This document shows positions 18,726 to 47,224 of a DNA stretch of 64,000 bases, one piece after another (positions within the stretch are counted from its first letter, which is position 1; each line of letters begins with the position of its first letter). The stretch is from assembly GCA_001657385.1 (NCBI GenBank), contig LYSZ01000005.1, positions 248,001 through 312,000 of the forward strand. The letters are read 5' to 3'. This DNA is from Parvularcula sp. BBD 1991-13 (GTDB taxonomy: Bacteria; Pseudomonadota; Alphaproteobacteria; Caulobacterales; Parvularculaceae). The position numbers and the translations under genes were made by a program. The notes under the pieces are model-generated. The model was given only the letters and a program-made list of their open reading frames with translations. It ran no database searches and was not told the origin of the DNA.

Positions 18726-19307
18726 TTAATAGGAATAACCAAATCGTTCGATGACCTCCGAGTCGATCCTGGCCACCAGGTCAATCAGCGCCTGGCTGTC
18801 GTAATATTCCTTATAGTGACGGCGTGACGTCATGTTGAGTTTGAGAATGTCTCGCGGGTATCCATGCATTTCGGAAAGCCTCTTGATGCTGGCGGCGTAG
18901 TCTTCGTAAAGAAAAACCTCCGTCACGCCCCAGCACCAGTGTATTTGCGGCGTCCCGAACCAGTTGGATTTTTCCTGCGAAAACTCGTTCACCTCCAGCC
19001 ATTCGGCAAACGAATAGCGCCGCGCCCGGGTATGGCTCAACGCGGAGGACGAAAAACGGGCGAATTCTGTACTCCTCTGATAATGATAAAGAGACACATA
19101 GCGATCCCAGGGATTCCTTACGAATGTGAAGCTGTAGAAAGTCGGCCACGTATCTTGAAAAATCCAGGCGACCGCCTCCTGCGGCCGGGTGTGGCTGAAA
19201 CGATTGTTGCGGCTTATTTCCTTGTAGCCGAAACTCCGTATCAGCGAACTACCGGCTGTCTTGGGATTATGAATGAAAATAACTTTTCGCTTCTGGTCTA
19301 CGAACAT
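18726..19307 (-). CDS. Sulfotransferase family 2-like protein (RiPP-operon tailoring candidate)
   Basis: A 193-residue sulfotransferase. The 5'-phosphosulfate loop P-K-T-A-G-S-S is at residues 15-21 and the 3'-phosphate motif F-V-R-N-P-W-D-R-Y at 62-70, so PAPS binding is likely. It would transfer sulfate to a hydroxyl or amino group. The start chosen gives the usual 'M-F...K-V-I-F-I-H-N-P-K' N-terminus and overlaps the Fic gene by 10 bases; an upstream ATG at 19337 is possible. As the last gene of the peptide-JmjC-Fic operon it is a candidate to modify the same product. Confidence 0.85.
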   Translation of the reverse strand: MFVDQKRKVIFIHNPKTAGSSLIRSFGYKEISRNNRFSHTRPQEAVAWIFQDTWPTFYSFTFVRNPWDRYVSLYHYQRSTEFARFSSSALSHTRARRYSFAEWLEVNEFSQEKSNWFGTPQIHWCWGVTEVFLYEDYAASIKRLSEMHGYPRDILKLNMTSRRHYKEYYDSQALIDLVARIDSEVIERFGYSY

Positions 19308-20155
19308 CCTGACACGCCGTAATGAGATTGAAGACAATGCGACATTGAACCAAAGCCTTTGATCAGCAGGGTCAGCATGTAATCCATGTTCCGGTGATAC
19401 ATGATCCGCCGCGCGGCTATCTCAAAAACTCCCTGGGAGAGGTAGGCCAGCGGCCCTATGGGAAGGCTCGTGGAATCTATGATCCGCGCCTTGGCTAACA
19501 GGATCACAAAGAGGCTGCGGGAGACGCGCCCATTGCCGTCGTCAAGGGGGTGAATGGCGAGAAACGCAGCCATCGCCCAGACAGCCTTGATCAGTTCGGC
19601 CTCCGTCGCGTCATAACCTTGGTTGGCGGTTGTCAAAAATTCCTTTAGCGCCCTCTGTAGCGTGTGCGGCTTATAGTATTCCTTTCGAAACCCGTAATGG
19701 TCAGGCTCAGTGAAATTCTCCACGGTGCGGATTGACGGCTTTGCGTTCGGTCCCAGAAACGCCGATACCGACAAAAGGTCGTCTACGGAGAGCTCCCGCG
19801 AAGCGGTTTTTTCAAGTGTCAGGGCGATGGCGGGGCCGGGATCGGCTCTCGATCTCAATTCGTCTAACGCGCGCATGGGCGCGTTCAGGTATCTGCGAAT
19901 TTCACACCATGAAAACGTATCGTCAGGAAGCGGATGCGCTCGTAAAAGGTCAATCCACGCTTGCTGCGTGAACGACGCGCCAGTAGTCTTCTGTATATGA
20001 ATGACGGCATTGTCCAGGGCCTGAAGCGCGTTGAGAAGCTTGCCGGCCGCGAGGATGTTTTCTTCCGCGAGGAAGTGATTCAGAGGTTCAATTTCTGGAA
20101 CCGGACTCACCAGTTCCATGGGCGCCGTCTTCTTCTCTGTGAAGGGATCAGGCAT
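19298..20155 (-). CDS. Fic/DOC-family protein
   Basis: A 285-residue Fic-domain protein. The active-site motif H-P-L-D-D-G-N-G-R-V-S-R lies at residues 202-213: His, Asp, the G-N-G anion hole and both Args are present, but the usual third-position Phe is Leu. Helices 1-5 of the fold precede it. I see no (S/T)xxxE(G/N) inhibitory helix, so it may be active without the usual autoinhibition. Fic enzymes move AMP, UMP or phosphocholine onto hydroxyls of proteins. The start overlaps the JmjC stop by eight bases and the end overlaps the sulfotransferase gene. No antitoxin gene is adjacent. Confidence 0.85.
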   Translation of the reverse strand: MPDPFTEKKTAPMELVSPVPEIEPLNHFLAEENILAAGKLLNALQALDNAVIHIQKTTGASFTQQAWIDLLRAHPLPDDTFSWCEIRRYLNAPMRALDELRSRADPGPAIALTLEKTASRELSVDDLLSVSAFLGPNAKPSIRTVENFTEPDHYGFRKEYYKPHTLQRALKEFLTTANQGYDATEAELIKAVWAMAAFLAIHPLDDGNGRVSRSLFVILLAKARIIDSTSLPIGPLAYLSQGVFEIAARRIMYHRNMDYMLTLLIKGFGSMSHCLQSHYGVSGCS

Positions 20156-21368
20156 GTTGGCGGCCTGTAACGACATCGATGACGCCGAGCGAGGCAAGAG
20201 CATCGATCGGCAAGCGATCCGCGCCGTTCGTATCCTTGAGTTCGCGTATCGTCAGCTGTCGGTGTTCCTCAAGTCGTTCGAGCGTTGCATAGGCGATTTT
20301 GTTGAGTGTAAGCGTTTTAAATCCCGCCTGGAGCATCCATTGCGAAGTTGATAGCCGTTTTACAGTCATGGGCAGATCGCGCAACACGACCGTATCATCA
20401 TCGTGCAAATCCGAAACGCGCAACCCCGCTGTCAGCGGCGTCGGAAAAATCCCCTGTTCGTCCGCCACCCGATTCCGGCATGATGACAAGGCCTGCGCGA
20501 AATCCAGTCCCGCAACAGCTTCCAGAGCGGCGTTGCGGATATCTCCGGCGGTGGCTTGGATCGAGGTTGGATCGGACAGCAGATTGGCGGGCGCAGGCTC
20601 TCTCAATATCCCCATGCGATCATGATCAGTACTCAGAGCGCGTAGCAGTATATCGAAAATCGTGATCGCTCTTAAGCCGAAGGTGACATGCAGCGACGCA
20701 TCGCCTGTCGTCCGGGCGATGTGAGGAAAGCCCGCCGGAAGATAAAGGCAATCGCCTGGCTCAAGCGTTTTTTCATCGATCAGCGTCTCCGCAAGAACAT
20801 CGTGCGGCGTGTCCGGATTGAAGGACGCCGGATGATCAGGGACCGAAGCGGGTTTGGCGTAAATACGCCAGGTCTTTGTTCCGTCAAGTTGCAGGACAAT
20901 GACGTCGTGAACGTCATAATGGAGGTTGTACCCCCGCGACCACGCAGGGGTCAGGTAGAGATTTGCATGAACCGACCTTGACGTCGCAAGAGACAGCAGC
21001 CTCGCCAATGTCGAGAAGACATTCAGGTGATGGTGGGCCCCTTCATAAACAATGGTTTGTCCATCATGGTATCGCATCCAGAGTTGCTGAAGATCTACTT
21101 TCCCGCGCGAGGTGATTGCGGGCTGCTGCGAACGATCGCTGTTGACGACTTTCAGCGCATTCGTTCTGTCTGCGGACAGGTTTACCGTTTCGGCAAAATC
21201 GCGCCGAGAGATCAAAACAGGCGTTTTCGGCTGACCGGCATCGATTCCTGAACAAAGAATACAGCCGGTTACATATTTTTTCCCCAGCACGGTTTGTAGA
21301 AATGAGTCATACGAAACGCCGAAAAAAAACTCGAATACGGTTTCGCGATTGAGCTGGTTTACATCCAT
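20148..21368 (-). CDS. JmjC/cupin-4 type Fe(II)/2-oxoglutarate dioxygenase
   Basis: A 406-residue JmjC-fold oxygenase of the ribosomal-oxygenase (cupin-4) type. The iron triad is visible: His150 and Asp152 in N-L-H-Y-D-V-H-D-V-I-V-L-Q, and His216 in L-P-A-G-F-P-H-I-A. The strand L-D-G-T-K-T-W-R-I-Y after the HxD motif is characteristic. Relatives hydroxylate side chains (Arg, His, Asn or Asp) of proteins. The C-terminal 170 residues form extra helices, perhaps for binding peptide. It follows the 55-residue peptide gene and an attenuator-like hairpin, and overlaps the Fic gene, so peptide hydroxylation is the natural hypothesis. Confidence 0.83.
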   Translation of the reverse strand: MDVNQLNRETVFEFFFGVSYDSFLQTVLGKKYVTGCILCSGIDAGQPKTPVLISRRDFAETVNLSADRTNALKVVNSDRSQQPAITSRGKVDLQQLWMRYHDGQTIVYEGAHHHLNVFSTLARLLSLATSRSVHANLYLTPAWSRGYNLHYDVHDVIVLQLDGTKTWRIYAKPASVPDHPASFNPDTPHDVLAETLIDEKTLEPGDCLYLPAGFPHIARTTGDASLHVTFGLRAITIFDILLRALSTDHDRMGILREPAPANLLSDPTSIQATAGDIRNAALEAVAGLDFAQALSSCRNRVADEQGIFPTPLTAGLRVSDLHDDDTVVLRDLPMTVKRLSTSQWMLQAGFKTLTLNKIAYATLERLEEHRQLTIRELKDTNGADRLPIDALASLGVIDVVTGRQHA

Positions 21369-21470
21369 GGGATTTTTTCAGGCGAGCGGTTTGCCGCGCA
21401 ACTTTTCGGGAAGAGAAGCGTGAAACCTTTAGAAAAGAAGGGATAGCCGTCTATCTGTAAAGAGGGGAAA

Positions 21471-21505
21471 CACGCTTTCGGCAAGGCGATGTCGCCGAAA
21501 GCGTG
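21471..21505 (-). terminator. Hairpin between peptide gene and JmjC gene (attenuator-like)
   Basis: A perfect 12-bp stem (CACGCTTTCGGC / GCCGAAAGCGTG) with an 11-base loop; on the minus strand it is followed by TTTCCCCTCTTT. A second short inverted repeat (AGGCCTG / CAGGCCT, 21512-21531) precedes it. It lies between the small peptide and the first enzyme gene, where partial termination would make far more peptide than enzyme. Confidence 0.65.
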
Positions 21506-21581
21506 TAAGCCCAGGCCTGTGCTGTCAGGCCTTTGCGTACTGTAAGTTTGTATAAAGATTAAAAAGCCTAAAGCGGGAAAA

Positions 21582-21749
21582 TCAGGCTTCTTCAAGTGAG
21601 GACGGCGCTTCGACGCTGGTGTCCGCGATGTCGCCGTTCGACGCCCTGCCGTCGCCAAAGCCGCCGGAAACCAGTTCAAGTGTTTCGGCGGGGATGTCCC
21701 AAACGCTTTTTCCGTCCGTCGAGGAGGCGCCCTGTTCTTTCAAAATCAT
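21582..21749 (-). CDS. Short peptide with double-glycine-type leader end; RiPP precursor candidate
   Basis: A 55-residue ORF in frame from an ATG six bases after AGGAG (AGGAGAATAAT). The N-terminal half is leader-like and acidic (M-I-L-K-E-Q-G ... W-D-I-P-A-E-T), then ends in L-E-L-V-S-G-G, the classic GG leader pattern of bacteriocin-type precursors. The remaining 25 residues (from F-G-D-G-R-A-S-N-G-D-I-A-D-T) are rich in Asp, Asn, Gly and Ser, with no Cys. The JmjC, Fic and sulfotransferase genes follow on the same strand after an attenuator-like hairpin. It is a candidate precursor for a hydroxylated, perhaps sulfated, peptide. No C39 peptidase is seen nearby. Confidence 0.7.
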   Translation of the reverse strand: MILKEQGASSTDGKSVWDIPAETLELVSGGFGDGRASNGDIADTSVEAPSSLEEA

Positions 21750-21796
21750 ATTATTCTCCTGAGAAATGTTTTATATGTTGGTCGTTATGGCTCAAG

Positions 21797-21824
21797 CATA
21801 TATTTTTTTTGACAGCTTCATCAA
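21797..21824 (-). promoter_or_regulatory. Putative promoter of the peptide operon
   Basis: On the minus strand, TTGATG and TATATG are 16 bases apart, in an AT-rich stretch about 48 bases upstream of the peptide start. The same spacing and a nearly identical ribosome site occur in the second leader upstream. No transcription start data exist. Confidence 0.4.
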
Positions 21825-23318: not shown

Positions 23319-24662
23319 TTGGCGCCTGGCAAGATCCTGATATTCGCCGCCTGCATTCTGGCTGCATTTTCGGCTTCGTGCGCTAGCGCTCAGTCGCTGC
23401 CGGATATGCTCGACTATGTCTACAACAACGATCCAAGGATACGCGCGCAGGAAGAACGTCTGGCGATCATTGACGAGGGACGCGCTCAGGCGAAGGCGGA
23501 GAGCTTGCCGCAGGTCAATTTTACGGCGGGTCTGGAGGAAAATCGTATCGACAATTCATCCTTGTTCGATGCTTCCGGCGGCGTTCGGGAACAGGCTTTT
23601 GATTTTCAAACCAGGGGAGTCGGCCTGACGGGCTCGCTCGAAGTCTTTTCAGGGTTCAGGAACCTGAATAACAGGCGGCGCGCCGCGTCCTTGTCCGAGG
23701 CGTCGCAAGCGGAACTGAACCTTGTGACGCAAACGGTTTTACGCGATGCCGCCGCTGCATATTTTGATCTGTTGCGTGATCGGAAAGTCCATCATGTGCG
23801 GCTGGAAAATGTCGAGGTCCTCATGCTGGAGAACAGGAGAGCCGAAGAGGAACGCGAGCTTGGCGTTGCGACGCTCACGGATGTAGCGCAAACGCAATCG
23901 CGCCTCGCCAGAGCGCAATCGCTTCTGGCGCAGGCAAAGGCAAACCTCGAATCATCGCGAGCGGAGTATGTAAAGCAGGTCGGCAAGCCGCCGGAGGTCA
24001 TTGCGCCGTTAGACGCGCCGATCGCCATTCCCGACCGGCTTGAAGATGTGTTGAGCATCGCGCGCGAGGTTGAGCCGAGGATCGTGATGGCCCGCCACAG
24101 GGAAAAAGCGGCGCGTTATCGGGTGAGGATGGCCTATGCCGCGTTTTCGCCGACGATCGATCTTGGCGTAAGCTATCAGCTTGCCGATAATCCCAGCTTT
24201 TTCGTTCAAGACTCCGACAGTCTGATTTACGGCGCCCGGCTGTCGGTGCCGGTCCTTACCGGCGGGCTCAACCGTTCGAAATTGCGGGAAGCCAAGGCGA
24301 CTCTGCGCGCCGCAAGGCAGGAGGTCCTGTTCGAAGAACGCCGGGTGGAAAGCGATATCGCCAAAGCCTGGGCGCGCGTGGCCGCCGCCCGTGTTTCAAG
24401 GGACAGCGCGGAGAAGGAGTTGCAGGCCGCGCAGACGGCGCTTGTGGGCGTGCGCGAAGAGCATGCGCTTGGCTTGCGCACGACGCTTGATATTCTGAAT
24501 GCGGAACAGGAAAAACTTAACGCCGAGGCTTTCCTGGCTGAGAACGAGCGGGAAAGCAACGTGGCGGCGTTCTCTCTTCTCGCCTATATAGGCGCGCTTC
24601 TTCCATCAACCATGGAGGGCCGTCCTTCGTATACCGGGTTCGCCGGCGTTGAAGAACACTGA
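23319..24662 (+). CDS. TolC-family outer-membrane efflux protein
   Basis: A 447-residue TolC/OEP protein starting at TTG, supported by ACGAGGAG six bases upstream. The signal peptide ends at about A-S-A-Q (residue 25). Two OEP repeats of long coiled-coil helices follow, with the typical N-N-D-P-R-I-R-A, T-L-T-D-V-A-Q-T-Q-S-R and L-R-T-T-L-D-I-L-N-A-E-Q-E signatures. It forms the outer-membrane channel of a type I or RND-like exporter. The HlyD-type adaptor gene follows, then a glycosyltransferase; the matching ABC gene lies at 38153, so the exporter may serve the island's product. Confidence 0.92.
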   Translation: MAPGKILIFAACILAAFSASCASAQSLPDMLDYVYNNDPRIRAQEERLAIIDEGRAQAKAESLPQVNFTAGLEENRIDNSSLFDASGGVREQAFDFQTRGVGLTGSLEVFSGFRNLNNRRRAASLSEASQAELNLVTQTVLRDAAAAYFDLLRDRKVHHVRLENVEVLMLENRRAEEERELGVATLTDVAQTQSRLARAQSLLAQAKANLESSRAEYVKQVGKPPEVIAPLDAPIAIPDRLEDVLSIAREVEPRIVMARHREKAARYRVRMAYAAFSPTIDLGVSYQLADNPSFFVQDSDSLIYGARLSVPVLTGGLNRSKLREAKATLRAARQEVLFEERRVESDIAKAWARVAAARVSRDSAEKELQAAQTALVGVREEHALGLRTTLDILNAEQEKLNAEAFLAENERESNVAAFSLLAYIGALLPSTMEGRPSYTGFAGVEEH

Positions 24663-24740: not shown

Positions 24741-26054
24741 ATGCATATGACGAAAGCTGAAGACATTCCGTTTCCCCAGGCGATCCTGTCGCGATACCGG
24801 TTGATGGTGCTGGTCGCTGCTGCGTTCTTACTCTCATGTATTGCCCTCGGCTGCATGGCCAAAGTCGATGTTGTGGTTACAGGGGACGGATCGGTTTCTC
24901 CCGATTTTACAGACTACACCTTGTCGGCGCCCCGGTCCGGGGAGTTATCCGTGAAATCCGCCGTGGACGGCGACCGACTCGCGCCCGGAGACCTCATCCT
25001 TGAATTCAACTGCGCTTCGGAAGAGAGCAAGCGCGCCGCTCTGGTCAACCAGTTGGCCGTGACCCAGGGCGTATTGGCGCGAGGGTTGACCCTTGCCTCG
25101 GCCGTTTTCGATGAGGATCTTGTCCGCGCCCTCCACGCACATTTCGGGGCCTTCGCCGACGCCGACGAGACCTTTGCGCGCGAGAGCGCGACGATTTTTC
25201 TCGAGCGGCACCTCACCCTCGCAAAGGTTGCCGAACGGTCGGTGTCCAAGTTCGACGCGAGGTTGTCCGCGCTTGAGGTTGAAAAGGAGAAAACCGCAGT
25301 TGATTCGGCGCTGGCGCGGCAATCGCTGGAACTGACGCGTGCGCTGACCGAAAAAGGATATGCGCCGGCGTCGAAACTGGCCGAGGAACGCGCGGCCGCG
25401 AGAACGACAACGCTCTCCGCGCAAATTTCATCGCTTGAAATCGCAAGAACGGCGGCGGAAAAAGAGGAGCTTGAGCTTGCCGCCCATATGGAGGCGCTTA
25501 GCGAGCGTGAGGCGATTTATCTCGGCATTGAAAAAGCCGTTGAGACGATCGCTCATATAGAGGAAAAAATCGCCGACGCCGAAAGCGCCCTCAGGGGGTG
25601 CCGCGTGCGCGCGTCTGTTCCCGGGGAGATTTTCTGGCTTACCTCGGCGGCGCCGGGAAGCTGGATCGCGGCGGGACAGACGCTGGCGAAAGTTGTTCCC
25701 TCAACGGATGAAATTGTTATCGAAACCCGAATTCTCGAAAAAGACATTGCTTTTGTCCAGGCCGGCCAGCCTGTTATCATCAAACTGAACTCCCTTCCTT
25801 TCACCCGTTACGGCGCGCTTGAGGGGCGGGTCAAGTTCGTATCGCCGGATACGGTTGAAGACAATATCGGCCGGGGCACGTATCGTCTTTATGTCTCGGT
25901 GGAAGAGAGCGCGGCGCAGATCGCGGAACGCGGCCTGGTTCTCGTTCCCGGCATGGCCGCCCAGGTTGACATTGTGACCGGAAAGCGGCGCATCATGGAC
26001 TATTTCATTGATCCGATCCTGCGTGCTGTCAACACCAGTTTCAGAGAACGTTGA
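24741..26054 (+). CDS. HlyD-family membrane fusion protein
   Basis: A 437-residue periplasmic adaptor. A single N-terminal membrane helix (about 21-42) anchors it; a split biotinyl/lipoyl half motif (S-G-E-L-S-V-K-S ... D-G-D-R-L-A-P-G-D) is followed by a long coiled coil (about 130-270) and the returning lipoyl half, then the beta-barrel (E-K-D-I-A-F-V-Q-A-G-Q-P-V). This is the type I secretion MFP layout. It joins an inner-membrane ABC transporter to TolC. The 3' end overlaps the start of the glycosyltransferase gene (TTGA), so they are coupled. Confidence 0.9.
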   Translation: MHMTKAEDIPFPQAILSRYRLMVLVAAAFLLSCIALGCMAKVDVVVTGDGSVSPDFTDYTLSAPRSGELSVKSAVDGDRLAPGDLILEFNCASEESKRAALVNQLAVTQGVLARGLTLASAVFDEDLVRALHAHFGAFADADETFARESATIFLERHLTLAKVAERSVSKFDARLSALEVEKEKTAVDSALARQSLELTRALTEKGYAPASKLAEERAAARTTTLSAQISSLEIARTAAEKEELELAAHMEALSEREAIYLGIEKAVETIAHIEEKIADAESALRGCRVRASVPGEIFWLTSAAPGSWIAAGQTLAKVVPSTDEIVIETRILEKDIAFVQAGQPVIIKLNSLPFTRYGALEGRVKFVSPDTVEDNIGRGTYRLYVSVEESAAQIAERGLVLVPGMAAQVDIVTGKRRIMDYFIDPILRAVNTSFRER

Positions 26055-38152: not shown

Positions 38153-39874
38153 TTGCGATTGAGCGTGCCGGAAGCACAGGAAGAGAAAACAAGAAGCCTC
38201 GACATCCTGCTTGATTCCAGGCAAGGGCTCGGCGCCATCGTCGCATCGGCGCTGCTGGGGCTTCTTCTTACGTTCGTTTTTCCGCTGTCCGTTGCGGCGA
38301 TCATCGATCGCGTCATCGTGCACAACGCGCTGTCGACGCTTCAGATCGTCGCCGTCGTCCTGTTTACCACGGCCGTATTCGAGGGCCTCGTCAGCATATT
38401 GCGCGGGCGCATCATCAGCTTCAAGACGGGACAAATCAGCGCGCGGCTCGCTTCGTTGCTGATCCGGCATATCTTCACAGTCGATTTGAAACACCTCCTC
38501 GGTCAGCAGGGCCGGCGCACGGTGGAAACCGTCGCGACGATCAATCTTTTCAAGGATTCAATTCGGGAGCTGATCGACTTTTTCGTACAGATCTGCCTTT
38601 CGGTCACGGTCTATTCGCTCGTTCTGTTTGTGATCAATGCGCAGTTGTTCGGATTTCTGGTGCTGGCGCTCGTCGTTCAGGTGACGTTCCTCGCCCTGGC
38701 GCACAGAAGGCTGAAACCGCTGGTGACGGAATCGATTCAGGAACATAAACAGTTCAGCGCCATGCTGCATACCGCCGTCGGCGCCATTGAAACCTTGAAA
38801 GTCTACGGCGCGGCCGGCATTTTCGAGGGCGCGGCGCGGCAGAAGGTGAATTCCGCTCTGGCGAAGAACTTTCACGCATCGAGAGTGACCGCGGACGGTA
38901 CGGCTTTTTCAAGGATGATTGCGCGTTTCACCGAGGCGACAATCGTCACCCTGGGGGCGTTCAATGTCATCATGGGAACGTTGACGATCGGTCAGCTGAT
39001 TGCGTTTCAGATGTTCGCCATTCGGTTTTTTGAACCGTTTGGGCGGATCAGTCTGATGATCCAGCGCTATGAACGGGTTCGAACTTTCTTCAGGGACTGG
39101 GATGAATTTCTCGCCATTCGCGTGGATAATAAAAGCGCCAGCGTGCGGTCCGAGGCGAAACCGGACGCTCCTGTTCTGCATGTCAGCGACCTGTCATTTC
39201 GCTATGATGGCGCGAAGGACTATGCCTTGCGGGATGTGAGCATGGACATCGCTCCCATGGAAGTCGTCTTTATCCTTGGGCCGTCGGGATCGGGAAAAAG
39301 CACCCTTGTAAGGCTTCTATCGGGGTTGCTGCCTGTCAGGGAAGGCGTCGTCGAGGTCCGCGGGGTCTGCCTGCAGGATATTCCGGAGACTGAGCGCCGC
39401 AGCTTTGTCGCCTGCGCCTTGCAGGAGCCGATGCTGCTCCCTGGCGCCGTGGCGGAAAACGTATCGGCTTTTGACGCGCGGGTATCCATGGCCGAAGTGC
39501 GCCGCGCCTTACGCATCACGGGGTGCGAAGCTTTCGTCGATAAGCTGCCGGCGCGGGAGAATACGCTGGTCGGCGAAAATTACGTCTCCATTTCCGGCGG
39601 CGAGCGTCAGCGTCTGTGTCTCGCCAGAATGTGCGCCAGCAACGCCGCGCTGCAGATCATTGACGAGGGTACCTCGGGCCTGCATCGCCAGCTTGAGGTC
39701 GATGTTCTCCAGAGAATCATCGATGGCATGCAGCCGCACCAGGCGACTATCGTCATTACCCATCGCGAAGATCTGGCGGTGCTGGGCACCCGGATCTTGC
39801 GCATAGACGAGGGCCGGCTCGTTGCCGACAGCGCGGCTGAACCGGTGCTGGCGAAAGCTCAGGCGGACTCATAG
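38153..39874 (+). CDS. ABC exporter (fused permease and ATPase)
   Basis: A 573-residue type I exporter half-transporter. Residues 20-310 carry the six membrane helices, and the ATPase follows: Walker A G-P-S-G-S-G-K-S-T (about 376-384), signature I-S-G-G-E-R-Q-R (about 480) and Walker B I-I-D-E-G. The D-loop has H instead of D (S-G-L-H), unusual. There is no N-terminal C39 peptidase or C39-like domain, so it cannot cleave a GG leader. It is likely the inner-membrane partner of the TolC-HlyD pair. Start is uncertain (TTG 38153, or GTG 38165). It overlaps the convergent sulfotransferase gene. Confidence 0.88.
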   Translation: MRLSVPEAQEEKTRSLDILLDSRQGLGAIVASALLGLLLTFVFPLSVAAIIDRVIVHNALSTLQIVAVVLFTTAVFEGLVSILRGRIISFKTGQISARLASLLIRHIFTVDLKHLLGQQGRRTVETVATINLFKDSIRELIDFFVQICLSVTVYSLVLFVINAQLFGFLVLALVVQVTFLALAHRRLKPLVTESIQEHKQFSAMLHTAVGAIETLKVYGAAGIFEGAARQKVNSALAKNFHASRVTADGTAFSRMIARFTEATIVTLGAFNVIMGTLTIGQLIAFQMFAIRFFEPFGRISLMIQRYERVRTFFRDWDEFLAIRVDNKSASVRSEAKPDAPVLHVSDLSFRYDGAKDYALRDVSMDIAPMEVVFILGPSGSGKSTLVRLLSGLLPVREGVVEVRGVCLQDIPETERRSFVACALQEPMLLPGAVAENVSAFDARVSMAEVRRALRITGCEAFVDKLPARENTLVGENYVSISGGERQRLCLARMCASNAALQIIDEGTSGLHRQLEVDVLQRIIDGMQPHQATIVITHREDLAVLGTRILRIDEGRLVADSAAEPVLAKAQADS

Positions 39875-44205: not shown

Positions 44206-44372
44206 ATTGATGAATTCGGGCCATTGCTGGTAGAATAAAAGCCGCCTTCCTGTATTGCTGGCGAGTCCGTCAGCTTTCTGCATTTTCTTGCAACTCCGCG
44301 AAAATCCGGCCGCATGGCGCTTCGGATGTTGATTCATTGAGGAAGGGGCGGTCGGCGGCGCATGGTCTCAGA

Positions 44373-45383: not shown

Positions 45384-45592
45384 TGTCCCGTATCTGCCGG
45401 CAGGCTATGCTGGCGTAAAGATATTAGTCAGGTCTTATGGACGTGTGTCAGTCATGCTGATGCGGCTTTTATCGCCGCCCGCATTCGTCAACGGGTTTCA
45501 GGGGCCGGGCTTCGGTAAACGGGCTGACTTAAGGCATCGCGTTTCGATGCATCAGAATTTCCAGCAGCTTCAAGATGAGAAACAGGGGCGAC

Positions 45593-47224
45593 ATGGACGG
45601 CGACAAAAAAGCTGACAAATTGACATTTGCGCCGCTCATGCTGGGAAAGCAGTTGAGGCTTGTAAATCCGTCGGGGGATATCGGCGTTTTGACCTTGTGG
45701 ACGAGCAAGGATCAGGTATTGCGCGATCTTCAGGCTACTCGCGCCGACAGTCCGAACGGGGCGGCGGCGCGCATCGCCGTTATCGGCAATTTTTATGGCG
45801 GAGGAATCGCAGAGCTTTTATGTAATCTTCAGTATAATCCGCAAATTCGTTTTCTGTTCGCTATCGGCAATAATCTGAACCCTTCATCGGTGGAAACGTT
45901 GCAAAAAATTCTCAGCAACGGCGTGCGCTATCATGACGGGGGACAGGCTGAGACTCTTGTCGTGAACGGATGTGAGACGCCGCTTCCTTTCATTGAAAAC
46001 CTTGACGTTTCCGGCGAGTACAGATGGCCGGATTTCCTGCATATCGACCGTGTGTCCATGGATGAAACATACAAGGCTTTACATGCTGCTGTTGAAACAG
46101 CGCCGAGAGGAAACGCCGCCGGCGCCCGTCGAATGAAGCGCCGCGAGGCTAGGCTTCCCTGCAAGGTCGGGGCTGCGCAACTAAGGACCTCGTCGACAGA
46201 GGTGATGCATTGCGTGGTCGCAAAGGGATGCGCTGAAGCGTGGGAGCATCTCGTGGCGAAAACCCTGCAATTCGGAGAGGAAATCGATACGGTTCACGGC
46301 CCGAGACTTGAGTTGCGCAATGTTCACTTTTCAATATCTGCGCCGCATGAGGGTCAGCTTGCGGATTTCGAGGAGTACGGTTTCGATCAGGAAAGCACAA
46401 GCGCATATGTTGACAGCGCTTTTTCCGGCGCCGTACCCCGGTCGACCGATTATTCCTATGGAAATCGACTAAACGGTTTTTTTTGCCGGAACGGCGTTGA
46501 GGCGTCCAAGCTTGATGTCATATGCGAAAAACTCAGAAAAAACAAAACCACAAGAGCCGCTTTCCTGTCATTGTGGGACAGCCGACGCGACACATTCAGC
46601 GATGTTGACGGGGACATCAACGCTCGTTCCACACCCTGTTTTGTCTCCATAAATTTCATTGCCGAAGACGGTTGTCTCGACTGTTTCACGCTCTTCCGCA
46701 CGCAGGATCTCTTGAGTGCGTGGACGCCCAACACCTTTCTTACAGTCGCCCTGGCCGAGCATGTGGCCCGGTCGTGCCGACTTCGATTGCGGATGCTCAA
46801 CGGAACGGTCTATGCGCTTCGTCTGGACCCGCGCAATGACCGCATGCGTTACCTTGATGTTATTCGTAAACGAACGAAACCGTATTTCACTTTCGACCGG
46901 CTCAGGAGGAAATTCGATTTTCGGGAGGACCCGCTTGGTTACTTCGTTCTCGACAGGGATATGGAAAAGAAGGAAGTCATCGCTTCCTATTATTTTCGGG
47001 GGGCGCCTAAAAAAACCTATCGCGCCAGAACGGCCTCCCGCCTGCACAAACAAATTGTTCGCGACAATTGCCTTTCATCGGTCGATCACGCCATGTGGCT
47101 TGGCCGGGCGATAGAAACGGAATTCCAGAAACTGCATTGTTCCTCCGCCGCCGTAGAGACTTCCGGTGAGAACCTTCACGACGAGGCGCGCGCCGATGCG
47201 CCGCCCGGTCCGTCACGAAAGTGA
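45593..47224 (+). CDS. Thymidylate-synthase-like protein fused to MtrA-like and DUF4346-like regions
   Basis: A 543-residue protein in three parts. Residues 20-115 resemble an MtrA-type segment (G-D-I-G-V-L-T-L-W ... I-A-V-I-G-N-F-Y-G-G-G-I-A-E). The middle part is thymidylate-synthase-like, with the catalytic Cys349 in S-T-P-C-F-V-S and Arg369, Asp372, Asn380 in F-R-T-Q-D-L-L-S-A-W-T-P-N-T-F; the His of the usual H-x-Y element is not seen. Residues 445-515 look like DUF4346 (D-P-L-G-Y-F ... S-S-V-D-H-A-M-W-L-G). It may transfer a C1 unit to a pyrimidine-like or other ring. It has no folate-cycle neighbours. Confidence 0.7.
   Translation: MDGDKKADKLTFAPLMLGKQLRLVNPSGDIGVLTLWTSKDQVLRDLQATRADSPNGAAARIAVIGNFYGGGIAELLCNLQYNPQIRFLFAIGNNLNPSSVETLQKILSNGVRYHDGGQAETLVVNGCETPLPFIENLDVSGEYRWPDFLHIDRVSMDETYKALHAAVETAPRGNAAGARRMKRREARLPCKVGAAQLRTSSTEVMHCVVAKGCAEAWEHLVAKTLQFGEEIDTVHGPRLELRNVHFSISAPHEGQLADFEEYGFDQESTSAYVDSAFSGAVPRSTDYSYGNRLNGFFCRNGVEASKLDVICEKLRKNKTTRAAFLSLWDSRRDTFSDVDGDINARSTPCFVSINFIAEDGCLDCFTLFRTQDLLSAWTPNTFLTVALAEHVARSCRLRLRMLNGTVYALRLDPRNDRMRYLDVIRKRTKPYFTFDRLRRKFDFREDPLGYFVLDRDMEKKEVIASYYFRGAPKKTYRARTASRLHKQIVRDNCLSSVDHAMWLGRAIETEFQKLHCSSAAVETSGENLHDEARADAPPGPSRK

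Follow-up and report, generated by a model that had tools for sequence, protein, structure and literature searches.

In the available excerpts of the work on biphenomycin, BipG is a JmjC gamma-ornithine hydroxylase that acts on the precursor of a ribosomally synthesized and post-translationally modified peptide (RiPP), as shown in vitro (PMC12707348). A further report, as excerpted, describes domains resembling the RiPP recognition element (RRE) fused to PF08007, with the closest bacterial homologues in RiPP-like contexts (PMC12710340), and the excerpted account of RaxX presents a 60-residue precursor with a GG leader, a sulfotransferase, and type I export (PMC6637879). Here, we describe an operon in a 64,000-nucleotide stretch of the alphaproteobacterium Parvularcula sp. 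BBD 1991-13 (GenBank assembly GCA_001657385.1, contig LYSZ01000005.1, positions 248,001 to 312,000; hereafter, the window). On the minus strand, the order as read from the sequence is a peptide open reading frame (ORF) of 55 amino acids (aa), a hairpin, and genes for a JmjC oxygenase, a Fic protein, and a sulfotransferase. We put at about even the chance that this operon makes a small, secreted, JmjC-modified RiPP by the mechanism proposed below. Its features are the following:

21756..21760 (-): Shine-Dalgarno sequence AGGAG, read from the sequence
21582..21749 (-): putative precursor peptide ORF, 55 aa, with ATG, Shine-Dalgarno sequence, and GG leader; no relative detected
21660..21749 (-): predicted leader, 30 aa, ending in LELVSGG, read from the sequence
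21585..21659 (-): predicted core, 25 aa, FGDGRASNGDIADTSVEAPSSLEEA; its likeness to the Asp repeats discussed below is one of composition only
21470..21506 (-): 15-bp hairpin separating the precursor ORF from the enzyme genes; folding z of -4.24 for 21380-21581
20148..21368 (-): JmjC_2 2-oxoglutarate (2OG)/Fe(II) oxygenase, 406 aa, with HxD at residues 150-152 and H216
20169..20369 (-): winged-helix-like C-terminal region of the JmjC protein, residues 334-400, from secondary structure
19298..20155 (-): Fic protein, 285 aa, with motif HPLDDGNGRVSR, from Pfam and the motif
18726..19307 (-): sulfotransferase (Sulfotransfer_2), 193 aa, from Pfam

The initial annotation, made from the letters alone, had proposed this arrangement, and its physical elements hold up well. 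The 55-residue ORF is present at 21582-21749 on the minus strand, with AGGAG (21756-21760) separated from its ATG by a spacer of 6 nt, and all three enzymes are identified by Pfam matches. The predicted overlaps of 8 bases between the JmjC and Fic genes and of 10 bases between the Fic and sulfotransferase genes agree with ATG starts at 20155 and 19307, respectively; longer in-frame Fic starts are present at 20176 and 20203. The hairpin claimed downstream of the peptide consists of 15 unbroken pairs, one of them G-U, and none of 200 shuffles of the 202-nt intergenic stretch (21380-21581) folds as well as the native sequence (z = -4.24). It could serve as an attenuator or processing stem.

The 55-aa ORF is probably a RiPP precursor with the JmjC enzyme as its modifier. 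It has the form expected of such precursors at the sequence level, that of a short encoded peptide divisible into leader and core. Leaders of the GG type that are cut by C39 peptidases carry GG or GA at the cleavage site and hydrophobic residues at positions -4, -7, and -12. The leader here (M1-G30, ending L-E-L-V-S-G-G) reads G-1, G-2, S-3, V-4, L-7, I-12, and V-15 when counted back from the cut, placing GG at the cut and hydrophobic residues at -4, -7, and -12, as well as at -15. The core FGDGRASNGDIADTSVEAPSSLEEA contains 3 D, 1 N, 4 G, and 4 S in 25 aa, and there is no tyrosine anywhere in the peptide. The G+C content of the ORF by codon position is 0.60, 0.51, and 0.69, while third positions in the three enzyme genes and in the glycosyltransferase gene upstream have 0.58 to 0.65. 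When third-order Markov copies of the window were scanned on both strands, ORFs with a strict GG leader and a Shine-Dalgarno sequence arose twice in 60 simulated 64-kb windows (0.033 each), while the real window holds exactly one; because the strict pattern was written after the peptide had been seen, the simulated rate understates chance. A loose xGG pattern occurred 3.7 times per simulated window versus 2 times in the real one. The peptide matched no family in Pfam or NCBIfam (E up to 1) or in PADLOC. When 299 genomes of the order were searched at E ≤ 0.05, eight gave matches, one of them the peptide's own genome, the best other match having an E of 0.0018 per genome over the 299 genomes. 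Six of the seven other matches align to a stretch resembling enoyl-CoA hydratase, and one lies elsewhere; all seven were taken as chance.

A second GG-leader locus exists in the same genome (L165, 5319-13362; C33:32000-50000). It encodes two near-identical peptides of 56 aa each (starts 13362 and 12834, minus strand) that carry LDIVSGG and read G-1, G-2, S-3, V-4, L-7, L-12, and L-15. Within the same 18 kb are an exporter gene holding a C39 peptidase domain (PF03412, 2.8e-35) and a gene that looks like radical SAM by motif only, the sequence showing CxxxCxxC. The recurrence of the same leader pattern near a C39 exporter upholds the proposal of a GG-leader precursor in the window. The genome contains two PF03412 matches, both on contigs other than that of the window; a C39 peptidase is available in trans within the genome, and it would be the enzyme that cuts the window peptide.

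The JmjC protein matches JmjC_2 (PF08007) at 5.2e-26, above the cut-off, and the residues of its HxD...H metal site (H150, D152, and H216) are invariant in 16 of 16 aligned proteins. By secondary structure, C-terminal residues 334-400 form three strands and three helices, in an order that fits the beta3-alpha3 pattern of the RRE; the same region is also covered by full-length matches to ribosomal oxygenases. Pfam gave no PqqD match at E ≤ 1 among the 16 JmjC proteins, and no RRE or PqqD chain stood among the best 50 structure matches of either list. A peptide-binding, RRE-like role for this C terminus is possible. A scan of genome contigs for the JmjC pattern matched 34 stretches, none of which was confirmed.

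Relatives of the JmjC protein, 26 to 42% identical and spread over several phyla, adjoin Asp-rich repeat ORFs. We scored a gene as having such a neighbor when a same-strand ORF, ending at most 1.6 kb upstream or starting at most 0.9 kb downstream, contained one Asp-containing 4-mer at least three times. Such ORFs were found at 51 of 80 JmjC loci and at 17 of 20 loci from a separate genome search, compared with 19 of 255 control genes (at least 300 aa long, in the same 80 loci, and over 3 kb away from the JmjC gene) and none of seven distant JmjC genes (L029-L033, L071, and L072). With at least four copies, the counts were 38/80, 16/20, 5/255, and 0/7, respectively; the JmjC loci are related to one another, so these neighbor counts are not independent events. 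At some loci that fail the same-strand rule (L077, L078, and L099), an Asp-repeat peptide is encoded by the other strand. A looser rule that admits either strand is satisfied at 69 of 101 loci, in some cases through wrong frames (e.g., L077 and L091). An acidic leader motif such as LTDDDI, defined strictly as [LI] followed by one or two of T/N/S/R/K/D and by [DE][DE][DEQ][IVM], is present in 19 of the 69 qualifying ORFs, versus a mean of 0.03 and a maximum of 1 in 200 shuffles.

The pairing was seen in L021-L028, L059-L069, and many of L081-L155. Among the peptide types are those with a Tat-like signal and TDSD repeats and those with an LNDDDI-type leader and DGGADG repeats; at L075, a short Streptomyces clavuligerus peptide lies beside the JmjC gene. 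Four Asp-rich peptides (L087, L094, L075, and L099, of six tried) had no Pfam or NCBIfam match above the cut-off, and no description of the JmjC/Asp-repeat pairing was found in the open-licence literature. This wider pairing is a stronger finding than the proposed function of the window operon. Separately, a small mobilizable Escherichia coli plasmid, pEC6868-2 (L073), has a JmjC/cupin gene next after one for an ABC transporter, and 25 Escherichia plasmid records gave matches; a precursor peptide was not recognized at L073.

Other relatives lie beside GG-leader precursors. At L110, a series of peptides resembling the nitrile hydratase leader peptide (NHLP) family, with LNEEQLEAVAGG or LTDEQLEIVSGG, stands upstream of the JmjC gene, and at L106 a single NHLP-like GG-leader peptide follows directly downstream, the distances being about 550 and 70 bases, respectively. 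The L110 peptide tested matched TIGR03793 (NHLP leader) at 2.3e-13 with 49.8 bits, just under the cut-off of 50.9. Both are contigs of metagenome-assembled genomes, and L106, labeled Zambryskibacteria, is possibly misbinned. The JmjC gene of L074/L169, on a Pseudanabaena plasmid, shares its locus with genes for LanM, TolC, an NHLP exporter, two additional 2OG-Fe(II) oxygenases, and Nif11-type precursors, the last lying about 7 kb from it. The JmjC proteins of L074, L106, and L110 form one clade (100 by SH-like approximate likelihood ratio test [SH-aLRT] in a quick tree and 100/100 in two later trees), and tblastn found no relatives of the window Fic protein or sulfotransferase at these three loci. 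The initial annotation had cast the JmjC protein as a peptide-modifying enzyme. Its relatives, which adjoin Asp-rich ORFs and GG-leader precursors, favor that view; the chemistry in the window itself is something that we infer.

In the mechanism that we propose, the 55-aa precursor would be made in excess, with its own Shine-Dalgarno sequence and a downstream hairpin that would damp read-through. Its GG leader would be bound by the modifying enzymes, and the JmjC enzyme, which has an HxD...H site and a winged-helix-like domain at its C terminus, would hydroxylate at least one side chain in a core that bears Asp and Asn, a step suggested by the association of its relatives with Asp-rich peptides. 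Asp or Asn is the natural guess for the hydroxylation target of such bacterial JmjC enzymes. The Fic protein and sulfotransferase might then conceivably cap a hydroxyl with a nucleotide or sulfate. The C39 peptidase-exporter encoded elsewhere would then remove the leader after GG and export the product; alternatively, a TolC/HlyD/ABC set in the window could be the export partner, aided by that peptidase-exporter. The members of this set are as follows:

23319..24662 (+): TolC, possible export partner, TIGR01844 above cut-off
24741..26054 (+): HlyD adaptor, possible export partner, TIGR01843 above cut-off
38153..39874 (+): ABC exporter, possible export partner, of the type I secretion kind and lacking C39, from type I models

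The type I exporter models match the ABC gene from profile position 141 or 136 onward, below their cut-offs.

The two remaining enzymes are recognizable members of their families. The Fic protein matches PF02661 at 2.6e-9 (38.2 bits versus a cut-off of 24), and its motif HPLDDGNGRVSR departs from the usual form, HPFx[D/E]GNGRxxR, by replacement of F with L; its single-sequence structure prediction has a predicted local distance difference test score (pLDDT) of 37. The sulfotransferase matches Sulfotransfer_2 (PF03567) at 1.7e-6 (28.8 bits versus a cut-off of 22) and contains PKTAGSS and RNPWDRYVSLY, presumably the motifs for 3'-phosphoadenosine-5'-phosphosulfate, with no match in the PDB at E ≤ 0.01. 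Among 100 related genomes, 20 match the Fic protein at E ≤ 0.001, its own included, with a best other match of 6.6e-7; plasmids yielded one weak Sphingomonas match, and five pattern stretches in viral contigs went unconfirmed. No JmjC-Fic pair was found by tblastn and motif in 110 loci of JmjC relatives, and tblastn with the Fic protein and both window sulfotransferases returned nothing at E ≤ 0.01 in these loci, a search that detects close relatives only; some of the loci are short, and distant sulfotransferases would escape it. One locus of the 110, L101, does contain a Fic motif, which lies at the locus end, some 8 kb away from the JmjC gene, and was taken as unrelated. Because relatives of the two enzymes are missing from the searched loci, the gene set is a singleton within these searches, and it is the gene overlap that speaks for joint action, just as it is the gene layout that suggests a link of either enzyme to the peptide. 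Nucleotidylation by the Fic protein and sulfation by the sulfotransferase are guesses; as the core lacks tyrosine, sulfate would go to Ser, Thr, or a JmjC-made hydroxyl. No paper on Fic proteins with RiPPs or biosynthetic gene clusters was found in the open-licence literature.

The G+C content between about 18 and 56 kb of the window is 0.52 to 0.61, versus 0.61 to 0.67 to the left, and this low-GC region may be an acquired island. Positions 22055-47224 encode a glycosyltransferase, AsnB, a B12 radical SAM protein, a carbamoyltransferase, two PhyH proteins, a second sulfotransferase, two weakly TTL/ATP-grasp-like paralogues (37% identical), a thymidylate-synthase-like protein, and type I export proteins, a biosynthetic-looking content that would suit a natural-product or glycan pathway. 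The thymidylate-synthase-like protein (45575-47224; TIGR03283, 3.6e-23, below the cut-off) also has MtrA-like and PterinBD-DUF4346 matches, a combination of domains that looks unusual for a bacterium. A Palleronia plasmid carries, amid genes for exopolysaccharide, a relative of the weakly TTL/ATP-grasp-like gene at 44337, and the window sulfotransferases therefore need not concern the peptide.

Several results weigh against reading the operon as a JmjC-modified RiPP system, and some of them would instead fit a JmjC protein that resembles ribosomal oxygenases and has a host protein as its substrate; the 55-aa ORF would then be spurious or encode a bacteriocin or other exported peptide with no relation to it. 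Among solved structures, the best matches are NO66, MINA53, and YcfD, over the whole length. The peptide has no relatives in the genome searches, including those of 299 genomes of the order; it is not repetitive, unlike the Asp-repeat family, and 630 of 1,000 shuffles align to the Asp repeats with as high a score as its core does, so that the likeness is one of composition. The window JmjC has a very long branch (2.7 to 4.0), and neither of the two main trees places it in the GG-leader clade. It joins L088, L132, and L134 in the quick tree of 108 rows (SH-aLRT 90) and the distant JmjC genes in a careful tree of 51 rows (90/80), both being flagged as long-branch joins. When it was forced into the GG-leader clade, the likelihood rose 10.8 above that of the free quick tree (p-AU, from the approximately unbiased test, 0.708) and fell by 3.4 in the careful tree (p-AU 0.316, not rejected), and when the distant JmjC genes were left out it moved beside an actinobacterial/myxobacterial group (87/69). 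Because its placement differs between trees, we argue the family association from nearest relatives and not from clade. The repeat measure, moreover, was chosen after two others had been tried: a composition rule that was weaker (27/80, 11/20, and 0/6 distant genes versus 25/632 control ORFs) and an Asp-density rule with little separation (47/74 versus 118/291 at 7 per 40 residues). The seven distant JmjC genes, although separated by weak similarity, were set apart after the neighborhoods had been viewed. Even so, the top-scoring JmjC relatives mostly adjoin Asp-rich repeat ORFs, a GG-leader ORF with a Shine-Dalgarno sequence stands immediately upstream on the same strand, and the best match in 59 other genomes of the genus and family has an E of 1.6e-6, unlike what a housekeeping ribosomal oxygenase would show. 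We hold a ribosomal-oxygenase role to be unlikely.

The other alternatives leave the JmjC enzyme to the peptide or reassign its partners. It is possible that the peptide and JmjC protein form a RiPP system while the Fic protein and sulfotransferase serve a glycan or small-molecule pathway of the surrounding island, as its low G+C content and its gene content, the relative of the 44337 gene, and the empty tblastn searches of the JmjC loci would suggest; the overlaps by which Fic is joined to JmjC and the sulfotransferase to Fic speak for a common function, and we see this as a real possibility that falls short of an even chance. A comparable, likewise minority, standing goes to the view that the Fic protein, as a toxin-type enzyme, self-modifier, or regulator, exerts control over the oxygenase or a host target and does not act on the peptide. 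Most bacterial Fic enzymes have regulatory or toxic roles, and the protein is of the SoFic type by its best matches (PADLOC SoFic at 2.2e-14 over residues 78-233; PDB Fic proteins at 4.8e-5), but no small gene stands by itself between the Fic gene and those adjoining it, and the protein has no [ST]xxxE[GN] motif. At E ≤ 1e-6, no Fic relatives were found in 385 genomes of the class and 398 of the phylum apart from its own, and this weighs against the mechanism that we propose. For export by the window genes, the TolC, HlyD, and ABC genes sit on the strand opposite to the peptide operon, and no C39 peptidase was found in the ABC gene (38153..39874). The lack of C39 in this exporter also detracts from the idea of a RaxX-like GG-leader sulfopeptide, a signal or bacteriocin with the sulfotransferase as main modifier. 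The same kinds of parts do occur in the RaxX system, as excerpted (PMC6637879), but the window peptide lacks the tyrosine of a RaxX-type core, which makes tyrosine sulfation impossible, and this alternative is improbable.

Returning to the JmjC-modified RiPP, its boldest form would have the core hydroxylated by JmjC, then both nucleotidylated by Fic and sulfated. This would be the first RiPP modified by a Fic enzyme, and it would have branched off from a large family of JmjC/Asp-rich secreted peptides sharing an acidic leader motif. We give this form little credence. Microcin C7 is a ribosomal peptide that carries a nucleotide, added by a ThiF/E1-like enzyme and not by Fic; if the bold form were true, Fic would be a new enzyme type, and the order of modification would be new, in ribosomal peptide chemistry. 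Firmer is the widespread JmjC/Asp-repeat pairing across several phyla, which makes hydroxylation of secreted peptides versus that of ribosomal proteins directly testable.

Taken together, the GG-leader precursor and the JmjC protein as peptide modifier survive from the initial annotation, while the joint enzyme set has no second example in the 110 JmjC loci. The statement in that annotation that no described RiPP class with this set was known to it fits with our finding none in the open-licence literature, although the excerpts do present JmjC hydroxylation of a RiPP by BipG (PMC12707348) and a GG-leader sulfopeptide, RaxX (PMC6637879). JmjC enzymes with RiPPs and GG leaders with sulfotransferases are thus already known; the JmjC-Fic-sulfotransferase set is not seen elsewhere in the searched loci.

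Set beside the known systems, the window JmjC would differ in its substrate from NO66, MINA53, and YcfD, whose substrates, by the titles of their structure entries, are ribosomal proteins. With RaxX/RaxST/RaxAB the operon shares a GG-leader precursor (60 aa in RaxX), a sulfotransferase, and possibly type I secretion; there, Tyr is sulfated and RaxB removes the leader, and the excerpted account names neither JmjC nor Fic (PMC6637879). The biphenomycin pathway (BipG/BpmG) has a JmjC 2OG oxygenase that hydroxylates a side chain of a RiPP precursor, as proposed here, but the target is ornithine and the other enzymes are an MNIO, a B12 radical SAM enzyme, an arginase, and a TldD-type protease, with no Fic protein or sulfotransferase named in the excerpts (PMC12707348, PMC12257519). 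The NHLP/Nif11 loci (L074, L106, and L110) differ by their long NHLP leaders and, in L074, by LanM and an NHLP exporter, and have in common with the window GG-leader peptides near a JmjC_2 gene. Finally, the JmjC/Asp-repeat loci encode repeats with Tat-like or LTDDDI-type leaders, whereas the window peptide is short and single with a GG leader, yet both combine a JmjC_2 protein of similar C terminus with a short Asp-bearing ORF upstream.

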